NCBI GenBank assembly: GCA_017404955.1
Contig: JAFRBH010000008.1
Span: 1-64,000, forward strand
Origin: Candidatus Saccharimonadota bacterium
GTDB lineage: Bacteria; Patescibacteriota; Saccharimonadia; Saccharimonadales; Saccharimonadaceae
DNA: 64,000 bases
Direction of reading: 5' to 3'
Part shown: positions 1,038-58,624 of the stretch, piece after piece
Layout: each line of letters starts with the position of its first letter
Position numbering within the stretch: the stretch's first letter is position 1
Position numbers and translations under genes: made by a program
The notes under the pieces: model-generated
Database searches by the model: none
What the model saw: the letters and a program-made list of their open reading frames with translations, nothing else
Told to the model about the DNA's origin: nothing

Positions 1038-2372
1038 TTATTTTAAGCTCAATGGTTCTTGCTTGCCAGTCGTAAAATTCTTAATTTGATATTTGCCGCT
1101 TTTTAGCTCATCGCCACCAAAGATAATGCCAGAGCCAGCAATCTTGGTTGCAAAAGTGATTTTGTCTCCTAGCTTTTTACCGGCTAAAACAATCTCTACA
1201 TTTTTGCCACCGTCACGCAAGTTCTTGGCTAGGTCATAAGCGGCAGTCCTAAGTTCTGCATCGTCAGCATCAATTGGCACGATTGCAATATCAATTGGTT
1301 TTCTCTCGGCAGAGTCAATCAATTTATTTTCTGACAAAATGAAGAACAAGCGAGAAAGGCCAATTGAGGCGCCCACACCTGGGAATTTTTGGTCAGTATA
1401 GTGTGAGGCAAGATTCTCATAGCGTCCACCGCCACCAATTGAACCAAGCTCTGGGTATTTTGGCAGACACGCTTCAAAGACGGTGCCAGTGTAATAATCT
1501 AGCCCGCGCACGATTTTGAGGTCAATCTCGGCGGCATCTCCTAAGCCATAAGCCTTCAAATCTTCCATCACGGCAATAAGTTCCCCTAGGCCTTCTGACA
1601 ATTTCTCGTTGCCAGCCTCGGAAGTCTTGGCGGCAATATTGATTTTCAGAAAATCTAGTTTTTCTAATTCCCTGATGTCTCCATGAGTGTTGATAAATGT
1701 TGTAATTTTTACAACGGTTTCCTCTGGTAATCTGAGTTCTTTTAGGGCTTCTACTGTTTTTGCGGCTGGGACTTTTTCGGCATGGTCAATAATATGAGAA
1801 ATCTCTTTTGTTTTATCGGCCACACCCAAAATTTCTAATGCACCACTCAAGAATTTGCGGTTGGAAATTCTAATCTTGATATCAGTTTTAACAAAAGTTT
1901 TCAGAGCATCGTAGAAACACGCAATAACTTTTGCATCATAATAAATCGGCAGGGTATTTCTACCAATTACATCAACGTCGCATTGATAAAACTCGCGAAA
2001 GCGACCTTTTTGCGCACGTTCACCACGGAAATTGCGACCAATTTGTGTGACAGAAAATGGAAAATGCAAGTCGCTCTCGTGCTCCACGACATAGCGAGCC
2101 AAAGGCACAGTGTGGTCAAACCTCAAAGCTTGGTCTGCATCCTTAGTAGTCTCCTCAGTTTTTACAACTTTGTAAATCTGTTTTTCAGTATCACCACCAG
2201 CTTTAGCGAAAAGAATTTCCGAGCGATCAATGGTTGGAGTTTCGATATTTAAAAACCCGTGTTTCTGATAAGTTTCAGCGATTTTTGATTTGATTTCATT
2301 GAAAATAGCCTGCTTTCCTGGCAAAAATTCTTGCATTCCAGAAATTGGCGAAGTATTCATTTTTTTGCTCAT
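1038..2372 (-). CDS. hisS: Histidyl-tRNA synthetase
   Basis: Class II aminoacyl-tRNA synthetase that charges tRNA-His in the cytoplasm. Motif 2 is seen at NFRGERAQKGRFREFYQCD. The histidine-specific loops are seen at GLDYYTGTVFEA and GGGGRYENL, and motif 3 at GVGASIGLSRLFF. An anticodon-binding domain ends the protein. Length is about 444 residues, normal for HisRS. An upstream TTG at 2390 would add six residues, but the ATG at 2372 sits exactly 6 bases after a TGCTATAAT extended -10, so I prefer the ATG and a leaderless message. The methyltransferase gene follows with a 1-base gap. Confidence 0.95.
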   Translation of the reverse strand: MSKKMNTSPISGMQEFLPGKQAIFNEIKSKIAETYQKHGFLNIETPTIDRSEILFAKAGGDTEKQIYKVVKTEETTKDADQALRFDHTVPLARYVVEHESDLHFPFSVTQIGRNFRGERAQKGRFREFYQCDVDVIGRNTLPIYYDAKVIACFYDALKTFVKTDIKIRISNRKFLSGALEILGVADKTKEISHIIDHAEKVPAAKTVEALKELRLPEETVVKITTFINTHGDIRELEKLDFLKINIAAKTSEAGNEKLSEGLGELIAVMEDLKAYGLGDAAEIDLKIVRGLDYYTGTVFEACLPKYPELGSIGGGGRYENLASHYTDQKFPGVGASIGLSRLFFILSENKLIDSAERKPIDIAIVPIDADDAELRTAAYDLAKNLRDGGKNVEIVLAGKKLGDKITFATKIAGSGIIFGGDELKSGKYQIKNFTTGKQEPLSLK

Positions 2373-2378
2373 ACTTTT

Positions 2379-2387
2379 ATTATAGCA
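2379..2387 (-). promoter_or_regulatory. Extended -10 promoter of hisS
   Basis: Reads TGCTATAAT on the minus strand, with a 6-base spacer (2373-2378) before the hisS ATG. The predicted transcription start is the A of the ATG. It lies back to back with the tRNA-Phe promoter at 2395-2403. Confidence 0.65.
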
Positions 2388-2394
2388 CAACGTG

Positions 2395-2403
2395 TGTTAT
2401 AAT
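2395..2403 (+). promoter_or_regulatory. Extended -10 promoter of tRNA-Phe
   Basis: TGTTATAAT, ending 11 bases before the first base of the tRNA. The hexamers of this and the hisS promoter are 13 bases apart on opposite strands, so the two promoters compete for the same DNA. Confidence 0.6.
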
Positions 2404-2414
2404 CTAGAGAGTGT

Positions 2415-2490
2415 GGCTCTGTAGCTCAGTTGGTAGAGCAGAGGCCTGAAGAGCCTTGTGTCACTGGTTCAAGTCCAGTCGGAGCCACCA
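2415..2490 (+). tRNA. tRNA-Phe (GAA)
   Basis: Full cloverleaf of 76 bases with CCA encoded. Acceptor GGCTCTG pairs with CGGAGCC. The D stem is GCTC/GAGC, the anticodon loop is CTGAAGA, and the T arm is intact (CTGGTTCAAGTCCAG). Confidence 0.95.
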
Positions 2491-2496
2491 TTTCCA

Positions 2497-2531
2497 GAAA
2501 CAAAGCGAAACGAAGTTTCGTTTTTTTGTTT
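2497..2531. terminator. Hairpin terminator after tRNA-Phe
   Basis: CGAAAC-GAA-GTTTCG (2506-2520), flanked by an A-rich left side and seven Ts on the right (2521-2527). It can stop transcription from the tRNA side and, through the A-rich flank, from the opposing membrane protein gene. Confidence 0.7.
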
Positions 2532-2871
2532 ATTCGTCTTCGTCAAGTAGTGATTGTTCGTTTTCGGCGACAAGTTCAGTGGTGTTATCTAACTCAGATA
2601 GAAGACCAAGTGGGTAGATAATCGCAAACAGGCCAAATACAATAATGGCGCCATAGCACAAGAAACCTACCCAAGCATTGCTGCTGCTCATATCAATCTT
2701 GATACCGCTTGTAAGCACAGCGATTGCTATACCGATTGCGGCGCCAGAAATTATCCAAGCTTTACCGATCTTGGCAGCAACGCTGATAGCCTTACGCATA
2801 CACATAGTGTTAGCGGCAACTACTCCCAATATTAATTCAATGTTGTTATTTGATTTTTTAGTATTTGCCAT
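2530..2871 (-). CDS. Small membrane protein of unknown function
   Basis: 113 residues with two predicted membrane segments, roughly residues 38-55 (WIISGAAIGIAIAVLTSG) and 67-90 (WVGFLCYGAIIVFGLFAIIY), and an acidic tail (ENEQSLLDEDE). I do not recognise the family. The ATG directly abuts the stop of the mscS-like gene (CCTAAATG), with an AAGGAGG ribosome site inside that gene's last codons, so translation is probably coupled. It is the last gene of a three-gene operon with the amidohydrolase and the MscS-like channel. Confidence 0.75.
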   Translation of the reverse strand: MANTKKSNNNIELILGVVAANTMCMRKAISVAAKIGKAWIISGAAIGIAIAVLTSGIKIDMSSSNAWVGFLCYGAIIVFGLFAIIYPLGLLSELDNTTELVAENEQSLLDEDE

Positions 2872-3411
2872 TTAGGCCTCCTTATTATTTCTACTACAAT
2901 TAATCAAACCATCAATATTATGGTTGGAAAGAATCTTGACTTCACCTTTCTCGTTGGTGATTTCGGTAGTTTTTAGCCCAATCTCGGTAACCGTGCCCTT
3001 AAAGCCATCGGCTGGCACGATAACTGTATCACCCACACCAAATTGATCTTCGGCGATGATAGCAATACCCGCGATGAAATCTTTAATCATATCTTGGAAA
3101 GCAAGACCTAGGACCGCAGTCATAATTCCAAGCCCAGCAAGTAAGGAAGTGACATTCACGCCGAGCACAGCCAGAATGACGAGCAGAATAATAATCAAGA
3201 ACAGGTATTTGATGATGCTTGAAAGCATTTTGGAAACGGTCTTGATACGTTGCCTATGGGCAGCGCTAGTATTTTTTCCGCCAGCACGATTAAAAATAAC
3301 CTTCAATACCCTTCTCAAAATGAGATAGACAACAAAGACAAAGAAAATGTACAAAGCAGAGTTAATTAGCTTCTTAATACCAATTTCGGTGCCAAAGAAG
3401 TCTAAGCTCAT
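2872..3411 (-). CDS. MscS-family mechanosensitive channel, short form
   Basis: 179 residues. After two membrane segments (about 15-33 and 66-90) comes the pore-lining helix signature LLAGLGIMTAVLGLAFQDM, then the MscS beta domain with EDQFGVGDTVIV and GTVTEIGLKTTEI. The large C-terminal cytoplasmic cage of E. coli MscS is mostly missing, as in the short members of this family. The role would be release of solutes on osmotic downshock. It starts just after the stop of the amidohydrolase gene (bases TAAAATGAGC) and overlaps its operon. Confidence 0.88.
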   Translation of the reverse strand: MSLDFFGTEIGIKKLINSALYIFFVFVVYLILRRVLKVIFNRAGGKNTSAAHRQRIKTVSKMLSSIIKYLFLIIILLVILAVLGVNVTSLLAGLGIMTAVLGLAFQDMIKDFIAGIAIIAEDQFGVGDTVIVPADGFKGTVTEIGLKTTEITNEKGEVKILSNHNIDGLINCSRNNKEA

Positions 3412-3412
3412 T

Positions 3413-4360
3413 TTATGCCTCGATTAAATCTTTACCATTTACATCATAATCGGCTAGCGCAGCTTTTTTGATGGCTGGGTCTTCATAAGTATTGTAATAA
3501 TAGGTATTGGTTGCAGTAGAGAAACCGCCAGTATAGACAGTCTTCTCAAAATCACCAGTGCCCATCGCGGCTGCGCCATCAATCATAGCTACGCCAGTAA
3601 GAGTGTGGAACAAGCGAGAAACGTTTTCCTCTTCGGTAGATTTAACTGGGTAGTGGGTATTGAGATATGCAATTCTCACAAAGCGTGATGGTGAATAATA
3701 GTCGCCAGGAAGACCACGCATCAAAGAGCCAGAGCCAAATGGTTTCATTTCTGCTTTACCCCATTTGACTTCTTTTGGTTGTGGATTGGTTAAATTCATA
3801 TAGTTTCTGAGGTTTTCTTGATGCCAAGCGTAGCCAGGCTGATTGGTGAGGACGTCTACATCATTATGGAAAATCTCCATACCTTTATCAGTATATTCTA
3901 CAACGATGCTACGATTTTTATCACCAATAATCCAGTGAAGCATTGAGACTGGATATTTATCATTAATTGGCTTTGCTACAATAGCGATATTTTTCAAAGC
4001 TTCTTCTACTTCATCAACAGTAGAAAAATTCATCGCAATCATTAGAGGGAATTCGTAAGCAGAAATATTATGCTTGCCATCAACTGCATCTTTTTCATAC
4101 TGAGCGTAGCCTGGGAAGTTGAGCCCAGCAATAGCAAGACCGGCTTCATTGGCACAGTCAAAATATAGCGGAACATTTTCCTCGATGATACCCATGCCAA
4201 TCATAGCGTATCTTGGGGCAATATCACCCAAGAATGCGGAATGGTATTGATAGCCTTTTGGAGTAATCACAATTTTCTGACCATAACCAACGGACCAGTC
4301 AAGGTTCCTACCAAAATACATATTACCTTTGTCATCGTTAAAGCGGACACCACTACACAT
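3413..4360 (-). CDS. Ntn-hydrolase of the choloylglycine hydrolase / penicillin V acylase family
   Basis: 315 residues, the usual family length. Cys2 directly follows the initiator Met, so removal of Met would expose the N-terminal nucleophile. The family's other active-site residues are all at the expected places: R18 and D21 (FGRNLDW), N81 (GLNFPG), N173 (LTNQP) and R226 (SPSRF). The family cleaves amide bonds in conjugated bile salts, penicillin V or acyl-homoserine lactones; the sequence alone does not choose between them. There is no signal peptide, so it acts in the cytoplasm. It has a strong ribosome site (CAGGAGGCATAAAAATG) and leads an operon with an MscS-like channel and a small membrane protein. 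Confidence 0.9.
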   Translation of the reverse strand: MCSGVRFNDDKGNMYFGRNLDWSVGYGQKIVITPKGYQYHSAFLGDIAPRYAMIGMGIIEENVPLYFDCANEAGLAIAGLNFPGYAQYEKDAVDGKHNISAYEFPLMIAMNFSTVDEVEEALKNIAIVAKPINDKYPVSMLHWIIGDKNRSIVVEYTDKGMEIFHNDVDVLTNQPGYAWHQENLRNYMNLTNPQPKEVKWGKAEMKPFGSGSLMRGLPGDYYSPSRFVRIAYLNTHYPVKSTEEENVSRLFHTLTGVAMIDGAAAMGTGDFEKTVYTGGFSTATNTYYYNTYEDPAIKKAALADYDVNGKDLIEA

Positions 4361-4428
4361 TTTTATGCCTCCTGTTATTTTTTATGATTTTAGCATAATG
4401 CTTGCGTTAAAACAAGATTACTAGGCAA

Positions 4429-4458
4429 GAAAAAGGCCGCAATTCGTGCGACCTTTCC
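4429..4458 (-). terminator. Terminator of upp
   Basis: On the minus strand AAAGGTCGCA-CGAAT-TGCGGCCTTT followed by TTCTT, about 13 bases after the upp stop codon. Confidence 0.75.
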
Positions 4459-4470
4459 TGAATGAACTTA

Positions 4471-5166
4471 CTACTTTGTGCCGAAGATGCGATCTCCAGC
4501 GTCACCAAGGCCGGGGACGATATAGCCGTTGCTATTGAGACCTTTATCAAGGTGCGCAATGAAAAGCTCCACGTCCGGATGTTTTTTCTGCATTAGGTCG
4601 ATTCCCTGCGGCGCGCCGATGATGCCCATAAAATGTATGGTCTTGCAGCCGATTTTTTTGAGCTCACTAACAGTAAAATCGGCTGAACCGCCCGTAGCAA
4701 GCATAGGATCGAGCACGAAGACTTCGCGGTTCTCTATATCCTTCGGCATCTTCCAGAAGTACTTCTGAGGCTTCAGAGTTTCCTCGTCACGATAGATCCC
4801 GCAAAAGCCAGTTCTTGCCTGCGGCACGATATCCTTCATGGGCTGTTCCATAGCAAGCCCTGCACGAAGAATCGGTACCAAAACCTGTTTTTTGCCAGCG
4901 ATTCTCTTACCGATTGTCGGACAGATTGGCGTAATAATCTCTTTACTCTCCATCTTCAGGTGAGAAAAAGCATCAAAAGCGATGAGCTTCGTTACTTCTT
5001 CTACCAGCTTCCGAAAAATAGAACTCGGCGTCGAAACATCCCGCATAATAGAAATCTTACTCTCGATCAATGCATGGCCATTGTAGATGTGTGTAGTCGG
5101 CTCCAGCACCACTGTAGGATAATCGACAATCAGCTTACTTTCATGTTCCAAAATTACATCGTTCAT
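4471..5166 (-). CDS. upp: Uracil phosphoribosyltransferase
   Basis: Converts uracil and PRPP to UMP, a pyrimidine salvage step suited to a nucleotide auxotroph. The PRPP-binding motif is VFVLDPMLATGGSA (about 150-163), the flexible-loop side is VPILRAGLAME, and the uracil-binding C-terminus is VPGLGDAGDRIFGTK. 231 residues, slightly longer than usual at the N-terminus. It is translated from a very strong purine-rich ribosome site (AAAGGGGGGAAATGA before ATG). The codons here look more GC-rich than in flanking genes, which may mark a transferred gene. Confidence 0.95.
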   Translation of the reverse strand: MNDVILEHESKLIVDYPTVVLEPTTHIYNGHALIESKISIMRDVSTPSSIFRKLVEEVTKLIAFDAFSHLKMESKEIITPICPTIGKRIAGKKQVLVPILRAGLAMEQPMKDIVPQARTGFCGIYRDEETLKPQKYFWKMPKDIENREVFVLDPMLATGGSADFTVSELKKIGCKTIHFMGIIGAPQGIDLMQKKHPDVELFIAHLDKGLNSNGYIVPGLGDAGDRIFGTK

Positions 5167-5284
5167 TCATTTCCCCCCTTTCTTCTAAAGGAACCTACAA
5201 ATTAGCAAAAATTTTGGCCAAATTTCTTGCTTTCATACCGCTTATAATTATATCATATTTTTAGTGTTTTGGCAATGATGATAA

Positions 5285-6466
5285 TTAGTCTTTAAAGATT
5301 TTTTCATCCTTAATTTCGTCTGGGAGATAGCTTTTGTCTAGATGAAAACCAGCTTCCCATTTTTGGCCTTTGCCAAAGCCCAAATCTTTCATTAATTTGG
5401 TTGGCGCATTGCGAAGATGAGTTGGAACTGGCAAACCCATAGATCTATGAGCTAAATCTTGTGCCTTATACCAAGCATCAATCGTACTACGATTTTTCTT
5501 ACATTTTGCCAAAACTACTGCTACATGACTTAGAATGATCCCGCCTTCTGGCATACCCACGCGTTCGATTGCTTCAAAAGCAGAAACTGCCAAATTTAGC
5601 GCGCCATTCCCTGCTAGACTGATATCTTCACTGGCAAAAATTACCATACGACGAGCGATAAACTTTGGATCTTCTCCAGCCTCCACCATGCGTGCAAGGT
5701 AATAAAGTGTCGCATCAACATCACCACCACGCATTGATTTAATAAATGCGGAAATATTATCATAATGATTGTCGCCGGCCTTGTCATAACCTGGGACTTT
5801 TTTGCCGGCAGCCTCCTTTACTACATTTTCATCAACTTTATCAGCCAAACTCAGCGCCAGTTCCAAATCGCCGAGCGCGCTTCTAGCATCGCCACCAGAA
5901 AGTTCTGCGAGGTAGTCAATTGCTTTTTTAGTTACGCGTTTAGTAGCTTTTTCTGCTTTAATCGCACGTTTTAAAACCGTGACAATGTCATCTTTCTTAA
6001 GTGGCGCAACCAAGACTACGCGTGAACGTGAAAGCAAAGGTGAGATCACCTCAAAACTTGGATTTTCTGTAGTAGCACCAATCAAGATAATCAAGCCAGA
6101 TTCTACATGTGGCAAGAACGCATCTTGTTGAGCCTTATTAAAACGGTGAATTTCATCTACAAAAAGCACGGTTCTGGTTTTTAAATTCCAGTTTTGTCTG
6201 GCACGTTCGACAACTTTTTCAACATCACTTTTGTGTGCGGTTACAGCGGAAAGTTCAATAAAATCAGCCTTAAATTCATGTGCGAGAATGCGGGCAAGCG
6301 TGGTCTTACCTGTACCTGGTGGGCCCCAAAAAATCAAATTAACTGGCTCACCTTTTTTTACGATTTCTGTTAAAATCTTACCATCACCAATAATCTCATC
6401 CTGTCCAATAACTTCCGATAATTTTTGCGGGCGCATACGTTCCGCGAGTGGCACTCTATTTGTCAT
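5285..6466 (-). CDS. rarA: Replication-associated recombination protein A (MgsA/WRNIP1 family AAA+ ATPase)
   Basis: AAA+ ATPase acting at stalled replication forks. Walker A is GPPGTGKTTLAR, Walker B is VLFVDEIHRF, sensor 1 is ILIGATTENPSFE, and the arginine finger is in LLSRSRV. The C-terminal tetramerisation and clamp-loader-like helical region includes the conserved MPEGGIILSHVAVVLA and YKAQDLAHRSMGLPVP. An in-frame ATG at 6505 would add 13 residues, but the ATG at 6466 begins the conserved MTNRVPLAERMRP. TATAAT lies 9 bases upstream of it, so I chose 6466. The gene is divergent from the Trm11-like gene. Confidence 0.93.
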   Translation of the reverse strand: MTNRVPLAERMRPQKLSEVIGQDEIIGDGKILTEIVKKGEPVNLIFWGPPGTGKTTLARILAHEFKADFIELSAVTAHKSDVEKVVERARQNWNLKTRTVLFVDEIHRFNKAQQDAFLPHVESGLIILIGATTENPSFEVISPLLSRSRVVLVAPLKKDDIVTVLKRAIKAEKATKRVTKKAIDYLAELSGGDARSALGDLELALSLADKVDENVVKEAAGKKVPGYDKAGDNHYDNISAFIKSMRGGDVDATLYYLARMVEAGEDPKFIARRMVIFASEDISLAGNGALNLAVSAFEAIERVGMPEGGIILSHVAVVLAKCKKNRSTIDAWYKAQDLAHRSMGLPVPTHLRNAPTKLMKDLGFGKGQKWEAGFHLDKSYLPDEIKDEKIFKD

Positions 6467-6542
6467 ATATATAATATTATATATCTTTGCAATTACTTTT
6501 TCCATAATTTAAGAAGTCTATGCTAGGAAATTTTAAGTTTTA

Positions 6543-6551
6543 TGGTATAAT
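6543..6551 (+). promoter_or_regulatory. Extended -10 promoter of the Trm11-like gene
   Basis: TGGTATAAT with a 6-base spacer to the ATG at 6558; predicted leaderless. Confidence 0.65.
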
Positions 6552-6557
6552 ATAATT

Positions 6558-7658
6558 ATGCAATATTTAGCAGTCCTAGGTCGGCAGCCAAAGTTATCTT
6601 TGGCGGAACTTGAAAGTTTGTTTTCTGATGTGACGCCGCTAGGACTCACTCTTGCAACTTTTACCAGTACTGATATTTCTTCTATCTCTAGACTCGGCGG
6701 TACTATTAAGCTTGCTCAGGAAATTTCCGAAAAACCGGAAAAATATCTTCTAGACTTAAACTTTGATGGCAAAATTGTGTTTGGAATTTCTGATTATTCC
6801 AAAGGTGCAAATGCTAGAAAAACTCAAAGTCTAGCTCTAAAAATTAAGCGTGTTTTAAAGACAAATGGCAAATCGGTACGCGTGCTAGAAAACAAAGACG
6901 CAGTACTTTCTTCTGCTACTGTTTTCCATAATCAGCTTGGCGAAAAGCCTGGCCATATCGAATTTATTAAATATGGCAACCGCTGGTTTGTTTTAACTGG
7001 CGTTCAGAACATAAATGCTTATCGTGATCGTGACCAAGGTCGCCCAGCACGTGATGCCAAGGTAGGAATGTTACCACCAAAATTAGCACAGATTTTAATC
7101 AATCTTTGCGGCCCGCTTGAGGCTGGCTCTCGAATTCTCGACCCATTTTGCGGAACTGGCGTAGTGTTGCAGGAGGCATCACTCATGGGTTATTCGGTTT
7201 ATGGCACTGATGCCAGCGAGAGAATGATTGAGTATTCCGACAAAAACCTAGCTTGGTTAAATAAAAAATCTGATTCCCTAGTTGAAGTCGGTGATGCCAC
7301 CAATTATGAATGGCAACCACCAATTGATGCCGTAGCTTCAGAAACATATCTTGGTCCGCCAATGTCTGAGCCACCGGTGGAGATAAAACTAAAAACCGTC
7401 GAGCAAGAGTGTCGTGGAATAATCGTTGGGTTTCTAAAAAACTTGGCGAAACAAATTAAAAAAGACACACCAGTAGTCATTGCCGTGCCAGCATGGCTAC
7501 GCCCAGACGGCTCATATTATCGCTTGAGATTGCTTGACGAGTTCGAGAAACTGGGGTATAATGTAGTAAAGTATAAGAACTTGAGTCAAAGAGATCTGCT
7601 TTATCACCGTGATGGGCAGGTTGTGGCTCGAGAAATAATAGTATTAAGGAAGAAATAA
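6558..7658 (+). CDS. Trm11/TrmG10-like RNA methyltransferase
   Basis: 366 residues. The N-terminal half resembles the THUMP-containing part of archaeal Trm-G10/Trm11 enzymes, which methylate guanosine in tRNA. The linker DQGRPARDAKVGMLPPKLAQ precedes the SAM-binding motif ILDPFCGTGVVLQEA (about 193-207). The usual catalytic D/N-PP-Y motif is not present in standard form; ASETYLGPP (about 261-269) occupies its place, so the chemistry should be treated with care. Predicted to be leaderless. rpmA follows one base after its stop (TAATATG), so the two ribosome-related genes form an operon. Confidence 0.8.
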   Translation: MQYLAVLGRQPKLSLAELESLFSDVTPLGLTLATFTSTDISSISRLGGTIKLAQEISEKPEKYLLDLNFDGKIVFGISDYSKGANARKTQSLALKIKRVLKTNGKSVRVLENKDAVLSSATVFHNQLGEKPGHIEFIKYGNRWFVLTGVQNINAYRDRDQGRPARDAKVGMLPPKLAQILINLCGPLEAGSRILDPFCGTGVVLQEASLMGYSVYGTDASERMIEYSDKNLAWLNKKSDSLVEVGDATNYEWQPPIDAVASETYLGPPMSEPPVEIKLKTVEQECRGIIVGFLKNLAKQIKKDTPVVIAVPAWLRPDGSYYRLRLLDEFEKLGYNVVKYKNLSQRDLLYHRDGQVVAREIIVLRKK

Positions 7659-7659
7659 T

Positions 7660-7932
7660 ATGTCACATGTGAAAGCTGGCGGTACCGCCAAGAATATCCA
7701 CAATAACGCTGGTCAGCGCCTTGGTGTTAAGCGTTTTGGTGGTCAAAAAGTTAAAAACGGTGAAGTAATCGTACGCCAAACTGGCAGCACTAAGATTGCT
7801 GGTCCTGGCACTTACATGTCCAAAAACTTTACCATTCATGCTGCTAAAGATGGCGTAGTCACCTTTGTCAAAACCAAGAAGACCCACTTCTCCGGCAAAA
7901 GCCTACCTCGTGTTCGCGTAGAAGTTCGCTAA
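7660..7932 (+). CDS. rpmA: Large-subunit ribosomal protein bL27
   Basis: 90 residues. The N-terminal tail that reaches the peptidyl-transferase centre and the core are recognisable (MSHVKAGGTAKN, then RLGVKRFGGQ and NGEVIVRQTGSTK). The middle is divergent: IAGPGTYMSKNFTIHAAKDG replaces the usual FHPG-NVG-GKDHTLFA pattern. No Prp-type leader precedes it. rplU (bL21), the common partner of rpmA, is not adjacent; instead it sits behind a Trm11-like gene, with an AAGGAAG ribosome site in that gene's end. Confidence 0.93.
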   Translation: MSHVKAGGTAKNIHNNAGQRLGVKRFGGQKVKNGEVIVRQTGSTKIAGPGTYMSKNFTIHAAKDGVVTFVKTKKTHFSGKSLPRVRVEVR

Positions 7933-7937
7933 ATTTA

Positions 7938-7964
7938 AACCGCCTTTTAAAAGGGCGGTTTTTT
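7938..7964 (+). terminator. Rho-independent terminator after rpmA
   Basis: AACCGCC-TTTTAAAA-GGGCGGTT followed by a run of Ts. Confidence 0.9.
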
Positions 7965-7986
7965 GTTGCCTTGTTTTTACTTCTTA

Positions 7987-7995
7987 TGCTATACT
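7987..7995 (+). promoter_or_regulatory. Extended -10 promoter of the kinase-aldolase gene
   Basis: TGCTATACT with a 6-base spacer (TAATGT) to the ATG at 8002; predicted leaderless. Confidence 0.6.
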
Positions 7996-8001
7996 TAATG
8001 T

Positions 8002-9810
8002 ATGAGTAATATATTAATAATTGGGAATATTCTAAAAGATGTTTATCTAAGATTAGATGAACGCCAAAATAATTTTGAAATCGACCAAAGCGGTACGCCT
8101 TGGCTTGATTTAGGTTTTGATGGGAGTTCATATCACTTCTTCCGCAGAACCAGTATTTATGGTGGGGCAGCAGTAGCGCTGGAAGTGTTAAATCGTTTCG
8201 ATTTTTCCGCACGCATTGCTGGTGCTAAACTTGGATTCGCCGGTGGTTCGATCGTATCCAATAACCAGAAAGCTGACGACTATCGTTATATGCTTTGTCA
8301 TGGTAATAAAATTTCCTACATTGTACCGAATCAACGCACTGAGACTAAATGGGCAATGCCAGATGAGGCAATTGACTGGGTGTTTGTGGATCGTTCAGCT
8401 GGAATTTCTGACGCTTTAGTAAAAGAACTTAAGAAATTTTTAGCTATTTCCAACAAAACTCGCTTGGCTTTCTATGTACCTAAAGATTTAACTGCTGCTG
8501 ATAAAGATTTGATTGAAATGGCGGAAATGATCTTTACCGATGATGAATTACCAGAGCTAAAAGACAAAGGCTCTGTTTGTTACATTTCTGATTCGGAAAT
8601 TTCCCTCAATGGTCATTCTAAAACTTGGCGTATTGAACGCACAGATTTAATGACTCATCTTACTGTTCATTCCATTATCGCTGCAACTGTATTCGGTGCT
8701 CTTACCAAGGGTATGTCCGTAGAAGATGCTTTACGCTACGCTAAAGTCAATGCTGAAGGTTCTTCCCTTTCTGGCACCATGCCAATTGAAAAAATTAAAG
8801 AGATTGCTGATAATCAGAAGATCGAGGAAACCGATATTCGTTTAGTTGCTGCAACTATGATGACTAACGGAAAAGGCATTCTTGCTGCGGATGAATCTGG
8901 CGGCAATATTCACCAAAAATTTGAAGGCCTAATGATTTCTGACGATGAAAAACATCGCCGCGACTATCGCAATTTGCTTCTTTCTACCCCAGAACTAGAG
9001 CGCTACGTCAATGCTGTAATTTTGTTTGATGAAACTACCAAACAAAAGTGTGATGACGGCAGAGATTTTGTTTCTTATCTTACTGCGCATGGAATTGTTC
9101 CGGGCGTGAAAGTCGATGAAGGCCTAGAAAACTTCCCAGACTCTGATGAGAAATATACTAAGGGTCTAGACGGTCTTAAGAAACGCCTACCAGAATATTA
9201 TTCTCGAGGACTTCGCTTCTGCAAATGGCGTGCAGCCTTCGATATTGACCTTGGCAAACCTTCTGATATGGCAATTCTTAAGAACTGTCAAATCCTGGCC
9301 GAGTATGCAAAAGCTTGCCAAGATAACAACTTAGTACCAATTGTTGAACCGGAAGTTCAATATGATGGCAATTATACTTTGCAACAAAGCGCTGACACTA
9401 CTGCCAAAATTCTTGATATCTTGTTTGACGAACTTTCTAAAGCTGGGGTAAAGCTAGATGCAACTATTCTCAAAGTCAATATGATATTGGCTGGCAAGAA
9501 ATATCCGATTCAATCTACGCCAGAAGAAGTCGGTCGCGAAACTGCTAATGTGCTCAAAAATCATGTTCCGGAAAATATTGCTGGTGTCGTATTCTTGTCT
9601 GGGGGCCAGACTGTAGAACAAGCTACCGAGAATCTACAAGCTATTGTCAATAATGGACCATTCCCTTGGCCGCTAACTTTCTCATTCTCTCGTGCCTTGC
9701 AAATGCCAGCACTAGAAACTTGGAAAGGTGACAATAATAAAATTGGTGTTGCGCAAGATGCATTCAAAGCACGCCTTGTTGCTAACACTGAAGCATTGAA
9801 GAAAAAGTAA
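8002..9810 (+). CDS. Fusion: PfkB-like kinase domain + class I fructose-bisphosphate aldolase
   Basis: 602 residues. Residues 1 to about 262 resemble the ribokinase/PfkB fold: GGAA at 54-57, and a C-terminal helix pair with SVEDALRYAKVNAEGSS at 239-255. The catalytic DTGAGD anion-hole motif is lost; HLTVHSIIAA (219-228) stands there, with His223 in the place of the catalytic Asp. Residues about 275-602 are a complete class I aldolase: AADES (D297), K370, K408 (FCKWR), IVEPE (447-451) and Schiff-base Lys491 (ILKVNM), plus FLSGGQ (531-536) and FSFSRALQ. The aldolase half splits fructose-1,6-bisphosphate in glycolysis. The N-terminal half may be a regulatory sugar-phosphate sensor, or less likely a divergent kinase. 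Confidence 0.88.
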   Translation: MSNILIIGNILKDVYLRLDERQNNFEIDQSGTPWLDLGFDGSSYHFFRRTSIYGGAAVALEVLNRFDFSARIAGAKLGFAGGSIVSNNQKADDYRYMLCHGNKISYIVPNQRTETKWAMPDEAIDWVFVDRSAGISDALVKELKKFLAISNKTRLAFYVPKDLTAADKDLIEMAEMIFTDDELPELKDKGSVCYISDSEISLNGHSKTWRIERTDLMTHLTVHSIIAATVFGALTKGMSVEDALRYAKVNAEGSSLSGTMPIEKIKEIADNQKIEETDIRLVAATMMTNGKGILAADESGGNIHQKFEGLMISDDEKHRRDYRNLLLSTPELERYVNAVILFDETTKQKCDDGRDFVSYLTAHGIVPGVKVDEGLENFPDSDEKYTKGLDGLKKRLPEYYSRGLRFCKWRAAFDIDLGKPSDMAILKNCQILAEYAKACQDNNLVPIVEPEVQYDGNYTLQQSADTTAKILDILFDELSKAGVKLDATILKVNMILAGKKYPIQSTPEEVGRETANVLKNHVPENIAGVVFLSGGQTVEQATENLQAIVNNGPFPWPLTFSFSRALQMPALETWKGDNNKIGVAQDAFKARLVANTEALKKK

Positions 9811-58379: not shown

Positions 58380-58465
58380 GGAAGGGTGGCCGAGTGGTTG
58401 ATGGCACTGGTCTTGAAAACCAGAGATGGAAACATCCGCAGGTTCGAATCCTGTCCCTTCCGCCA
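58380..58465 (+). tRNA. tRNA-Ser (TGA)
   Basis: 86 bases with the long variable arm and CCA encoded. Acceptor GGAAGGG/CCCTTCC, anticodon stem CTGGT/ACCAG around loop CTTGAAA. A TAGTATAAT element precedes it. Its last 16 bases recur twice downstream. Confidence 0.94.
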
Positions 58466-58624
58466 AAATGGATAAGCAAGAGTTTACTCTTGGTTAGCCA
58501 TTTTGAAGGAAGAGCGGATACGTAGTTTCCTGTCCCTTCCGCCATCACATAAAAAACGAGAGCTTGCTCTCGGTTTTTTATGTACAAGTAAAGGTGTATA
58601 CGTAGCTTCCTGTCCCTTCCGCCA
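58450..58624 (+). repeat. Array of tRNA-Ser 3'-end copies separated by hairpins
   Basis: The 16 bases CCTGTCCCTTCCGCCA occur at 58450-58465 (in the tRNA), 58529-58544 and 58609-58624, spaced 79 and 80 bases. The two downstream copies share a longer unit, ATACGTAGyTTCC plus the rest, at 58518-58544 and 58598-58624. Between copies lie two long hairpins: 58464-58505 (CAAAATGG ... CCATTTTG, about 20 pairs with two mismatches) and 58547-58583 (ACATAAAAAACGAGAGC paired with GCTCTCGGTTTTTTATGT, one bulge), the second of terminator type. Could be remnants of integration at the tRNA, or a repeated element that copies the tRNA end. Confidence 0.8.

Follow-up and report, generated by a model that had tools for sequence, protein, structure and literature searches.

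Behind the tRNA-Ser(UGA) gene in the genome of a gut Saccharibacterium (718 kb in 13 contigs), the last 16–17 bases of the tRNA, with its CCA, are repeated twice in tandem, each copy closing a structured unit of 79 or 80 nt. We interpret these units as compact RtT-like tRNA-tail repeats whose tail copies would be cut by tRNA-processing enzymes, a reading to which we assign a probability of about 0.6. The locus lies in a 64,000-nt stretch of contig JAFRBH010000008.1, hereafter the window (Table 1). It looks like a compact variant of RtT, and not like something left behind by an integrated virus, because its design recurs throughout the genus and resembles RtT of E. coli. The evidence comes from the anatomy of the units, the agreement of each tail copy with its own tRNA, the co-varying stems, the genus-wide occurrence, and the presence of the same plan in the tyrosine and argVYZQ loci of E. 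coli.

Table 1. Features of the tRNA-Ser(UGA) locus (positions refer to the 64,000-nt window).
Feature	Position	Strand	Basis
tRNA-Ser(UGA) gene, CCA encoded	58380..58465	+	ARAGORN; sequence
Repeated piece, the 3′ tail of tRNA-Ser(UGA)	58450-58465	+	sequence
Unit 1, 79 nt; starts flush with the tRNA CCA and ends with a tail copy	58466..58544	+	sequence; R2
Unit 1, hairpin H1; no T-run, not terminator-like	58466..58503	+	fold; terminator scan; covariation
Unit 1, hairpin H2; minihelix-like, followed by GCCA	58508..58540	+	fold; co-variation
Tail copy 1, identical to the tRNA tail	58529..58544	+	sequence
Unit 2, 80 nt	58545..58624	+	sequence; R2
Unit 2, hairpin H1; T6 run, terminator-like in both directions	58547..58583	+	terminator scan
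Tail copy 2, identical to the tRNA tail	58609..58624	+	sequence

Across the genus, a unit usually opens with a hairpin (H1) flush against the tRNA CCA and continues with a second one (H2), whose 3′ strand copies the 3′ strand of the tRNA T-stem and acceptor together with the CCA; the 5′ strand of H2 is a new arm that matches this copy. In unit 1 the 3′ arm of H2 is the tail copy, the ATACGTAG stretch forms the loop side, and the fold pairs the left arm (GGAAG...) with the copied tRNA strand, leaving GCCA single-stranded. The left arm of H2 in unit 2 is degenerate in the fold, and H1 of this unit is ~91% identical to the unit behind tRNA-Ser(GGA) of the same genome. The 159-nt stretch of two units folds at -49.9 kcal/mol, against -33.6 +/- 3.8 for shuffled sequences (z -4.3). 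The covariance model R2, described below, matched unit 1 at 1.9e-13 and unit 2 at 2.4e-11 (58547-58624), both units being among its training sequences.

Much of this had been noticed in an earlier note on the same DNA. The 16-base tail CCTGTCCCTTCCGCCA does recur exactly, at spacings of 79 and 80, and each new copy is preceded by the motif that the note singled out, as ATACGTAGTTTCC (58518-58530) and ATACGTAGCTTCC (58598-58610). The hairpins are also real, but have ~15-17 standard pairs, slightly fewer than the 17-20 it counted. As it stated, neither an integrase gene nor any cargo lies within the 79- and 80-nt intervals between the repeats. In the genome search that the note recommended, neither ATACGTAGTTTCC nor ATACGTAGCTTCC occurs exactly anywhere else across the 718 kb, and one-mismatch matches are scattered. 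The ATACGTAG-type motif is species-specific, and what is conserved is the architecture.

In a BLAST search with the locus, numerous species of this genus showed a tRNA end, a hairpin and a further tail. We aligned 16 of these units (alignment A1) and wrote the two-hairpin structure by hand, since the automatic consensus fold mis-paired H2. In this alignment 89% of pair cells are paired and 14 pairs have changed on both sides, a level reached by none of 500 shuffles. The covariance model built on this hand structure (R2) found matches in 81 of 118 genomes of one Saccharibacteria genus. Within a class-wide sample of 195 genomes from 96 genera, it matched 31 genomes, all from that one genus, with no match in any other genus sampled. 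Of the 30 best model loci, 29 stand immediately after a tRNA gene or follow a first unit that does; the repeat unrelated to tRNA genes that the earlier note had named as a refutation was not seen, and the assembly artefact that it had also considered is excluded by recurrence in independent genomes. In the window genome, a check of all 44 tRNA genes revealed four intact units, of which two follow Ser(UGA), one Ser(GGA) and one Gln(UUG); Ser(GCU) is followed by a decayed unit.

When 84,980 named species genomes were scanned for pairs of Ser-type tails, the pattern turned up in 66 stretches. Almost all of these come from Saccharibacteria, mostly of the ruminant gut and including Candidatus Nanosyncoccus alces, whose genus is probably also that of the window. 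A match in Lachnoclostridium (L194) was without a tRNA and was judged to be due to chance. One contig filed as Methanobrevibacter sp. RGIG2411 (L214) is nearly identical at the locus to the Saccharibacterium G047, and is therefore probably a case of binning contamination. Viral contigs contained neither the unit pattern nor the RtT core, and viral carriage of the units was rejected on this ground.

Tail copies were found behind Ser (all four anticodons), Gln, Arg, Gly, Ala, and Met tRNAs, and each follows the tRNA it stands behind. The last 15 nt are identical to the adjacent tRNA in 103 of 111 distinct copies, and for 108 of the 111 the own tRNA is the best fit among 19 distinct tails. Many of the Ser loci were found by a pattern demanding a near-exact second tail, which inflates their exactness while leaving variable positions free; no such selection applied to the loci behind non-Ser tRNAs. 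Counted back from the CCA, identity extends to position 59 (+/-1) in 72 copies and as far as 55/56 in 29, defining two structural classes, and one Met copy covers the whole T-arm. The opposite strand of H2 follows suit: when its left arm is paired against the tails, the own tail ranks first of 20 in 41 of the 111 units and pairs better by a median of 4.3 kcal/mol. Copies often start at position 59 (18 nt), and we considered reverse transcriptase copying halted at modified base 58 as their origin. This was rejected as a general mechanism because the second class starts at 55/56, the Met copy spans the whole T-arm, and half of the genomes tested lack reverse transcriptase genes.

The tRNA-Ser(GGA) gene upstream of an ABC-transporter gene could be compared in ~20 species. 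Most have one compact unit there; G047 has two of different types, each found singly in sister species; two loci (L034, L178) have another hairpin type; three (L139, L148, L201) have decayed units; and one (L205) has none, with the gene starting immediately after the tRNA CCA. In four of the loci (L115, L120, L128, L144), a C to T change in the T-stem is repeated in the unit tail, and the partner base in the left arm is altered so that the pair is kept. Across 17 orthologous units, pairing is kept in 93% of the pair cells, and at 15 pairs both sides have changed (0 of 500 shuffles). Both hairpins are thus under structural constraint, whereas the unit itself is dispensable.

RtT has been known from E. 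coli since 1991, and to our knowledge it has no settled role. In E. coli, three 178-bp repeats stand behind tyrV, each closing with a tRNA-Tyr tail, and Rfam assigns all three to RtT (RF00391). The annotated RttR begins 8 nt past the tRNA, and its end coincides with the CCA of the first copy. To see how far the own-tail rule reaches in E. coli, five other tRNA regions were read. The tRNA-Arg(ACG) genes of argVYZQ in strain K-12 are followed by elements of ~134 nt with an exact Arg tail at their end (L265), which contain GGGAGGAT...ATCCTCCC arms and the CCCGAAGGGCGA stretch also present in rttR. They score below the Rfam cut-off of 45 bits, and RF00391 may be too narrow a model. Release of RtT as an RNA during tRNA processing has been reported for E. 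coli (PMC4986893).

The window units resemble both RtT (RF00391; rttR in the tyrT locus) and the argVYZQ spacers in standing directly behind tRNA genes, in tandem, and in ending in the tail of the adjacent tRNA with its CCA. A left arm GGAT... paired with the ...ATCC of the tail is a further likeness, and long forms in the genus share a GGATGAGAACC...AGGTTCGA core with RtT. The two differ in size and interior: the E. coli units are 134-178 nt long with a large branched interior, whereas those of the window have 79-80 nt, a small-loop interior, and a separate stem-loop, H1, flush against the tRNA. The branched core GGATGAGAA...AGGTTCGA is absent from the 79/80-nt units and present in longer relatives. 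RF00391 matched 7 of 118 genomes of the genus, one of them above the cut-off at 48.5 bits; this match, in G113, is a long relative that follows tRNA-Gln, and the alignment covers the core GGATGAGAACC...AGGTTCGA from end to end. On the retrieved loci where the tRNA was readable and a close tail copy present, the RF00391-matching elements behind tRNA-Gln, -Arg or -Ser end in the tail of their own tRNA. No other genus was matched among 333 genomes of the phylum. The window units themselves (L098) gave no RF00391 match up to E 0.5, let alone one of at least 45 bits, and none was found in G000. At loose thresholds, Rfam searches with compact units returned only tRNA and chance miRNA- or sX4-like matches. 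The window units thus share the plan of RtT without its core, and the link to E. coli RtT could be one of convergence. Behind tRNA-Ser(GGA) in G083 (L256), we observed three tandem long RtT-like units of ~173 nt, with two H1 types alternating.

The earlier note offered three ideas for the units, of which RNA units with CCA ends seem to us the best supported, given the RtT parallel and the annotated end of E. coli RttR exactly at the CCA of the tail copy. Its small non-autonomous element finds some support in the clean gain, loss and replacement of units at orthologous tRNAs, but no recombinase of the families tested tracks the units. In its fuller form, that idea makes the tRNA 3′ end an insertion site and the hairpin at the unit end an attC-like recombination site recognised by its structure, with units and small gene cassettes accreting there; we regard this as possible but unlikely. 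It would suit the variation at tRNA-Ser(GGA)/ABC, where zero, one or two compact units or a unit of another type stand with exact tails, the side-by-side types of G047, and the 91% of H1 shared by units at two tRNAs of the window genome. It would also suit three ORF-bearing intervals between tail copies: 459 nt with an ORF of ~100 aa behind tRNA-Gln in G010 (L140), 912 nt with an ORF of 142 aa behind tRNA-Gln in G029 (L143), and 940 nt with an ORF of 258 aa behind tRNA-Ser(CGA) (L187), the first and last ORFs having no Pfam match. None of the three families tested (tyrosine recombinases, reverse transcriptases and Y1 transposases) tracks the units: near-complete unit-bearing genomes such as G045, G055, and G026 hold a single tyrosine recombinase of a kind that is near-universal among the genomes, reverse transcriptases are missing in half of the unit-bearing genomes tested, and Y1 transposases in 11 of 12. 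Moreover, viral contigs lack the pattern, and there is no single site sequence, each tRNA having its own tail. A further proposal, which we think improbable, is a tRNA-anchored cassette system in which hairpins are recognised by shape rather than sequence, so that a single machinery could place units and small genes after any tRNA and copy or restore the tail of that tRNA. The unit hairpins share with integron attC sites the form of an imperfect palindrome that closes a short unit, with arms that co-vary and an interior that varies. They differ in that a tRNA tail serves as the repeated arm and that most units are geneless, and no integron integrase was noticed incidentally.

Repeats of a tRNA tail are the usual mark of tRNA-targeting islands and phages, and the note's remaining idea was that nested integrations of such elements had left the units behind. 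Islands at tRNA sites (attL/attR, ICE/CIME accretion) do produce direct repeats of the tRNA 3′ end, sometimes arrayed and rarely gene-bearing, and tRNA-Ser(GGA) of G078 does harbour a genuine island of 7.4 kb, which carries an integrase gene and an excisionase-like one. However, the part of the tRNA that this island displaced begins at the anticodon arm instead of position 59 and has taken the unit with it; ordinary integration therefore leaves a different mark. An island would be expected to keep to one tRNA, whereas the unit design occurs at six amino-acid families with 19 tails. The units are without integrase, tiny and fixed in length, with a tail that differs per tRNA and arms that co-vary with it; the constant lengths, the co-varying hairpins and the recurrence at six amino-acid families are at odds with random decay. 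With this geometry genus-wide behind many tRNAs, and no integrase correlating with it, we consider integration remnants very improbable. The units could alternatively be functionless relics, either tandem duplicates of the tRNA that have shrunk or palindromes that slippage has spread, homogenised through gene conversion with the tRNA. Slippage is indeed shown by the near-identical 81-bp units in tandem after tRNA-Ser(GCU) in G079 and G104, and several units are decaying, H2 of window unit 2 among them. Yet the left arms lie outside the tRNA and still track its changes, and 93% of pairs are conserved at the orthologous locus, so that we find neutrality quite unlikely as well.

If the units are RtT-like repeats, as we favour, each would be co-transcribed with its tRNA, and the enzymes of tRNA 3′-end maturation would take the tail copy for a tRNA end and cut at its CCA. 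Such a cut may free a small RNA, part the tRNA from downstream sequence, or both. In the window, the transcript probably stops at the terminator-like H1 of unit 2, in which case only H2 of unit 1 would be made; a transcript end just past this hairpin fits with its being intact while H2 of unit 2 has decayed. Among 84 compact arrays, 56 have no terminator-like site before the first copy, in favour of this reading; a third do have one, which counts against it; and 35 have such a site after the last copy. Copy number would grow by recombination between the direct repeats. Candidate roles include a small RNA, tRNA 3′-end quality, and separation from downstream mRNA. The predicted small RNA cut from a tRNA primary transcript is a likeness to spacer RNAs of the 3′ETS-leuZ type; 3′ETS-leuZ acts on named Hfq-bound RNAs in E. 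coli, and we know of no tail copy in it. The units are dispensable, being absent (L205) or decayed behind orthologous tRNAs, which counts against the reading we favour. So do the low number of intact units in the window genome, only four behind 44 tRNA genes, and the failure of the window units to match RF00391.

The plan of RtT thus occurs in a second, distant lineage, with more than 100 copies behind many tRNAs, which turns an oddity into a testable rule: a unit must end in the tail of its own tRNA, and the other arm must follow. The rule points to the tRNA-processing machinery as a partner and yields a comparative data set for function. It also means that tail repeats behind tRNAs need not be marks of integrated elements.

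A minimal form directly after tRNA-Ser(UGA) (L167) has no H1 and comprises two tandem minihelices of 38 nt, each with the tail at its end. The arrays behind tRNA-Ser(GCU) in G079 (L129, contig C7) and G104 (L130, contig C26) have three near-identical units each, followed by an H1 that stands alone; in G104 the contig breaks off within the array. The G078 island (L133, contig C11, ~1400-9150) lies between tRNA-Ser(GGA) and the displaced tRNA fragment, with a unit on both sides. Its ORFs include a tyrosine integrase identified by Pfam and, by eye, excisionase-like, methyltransferase-like, DUF262/HNH-like, and Fic-like genes.
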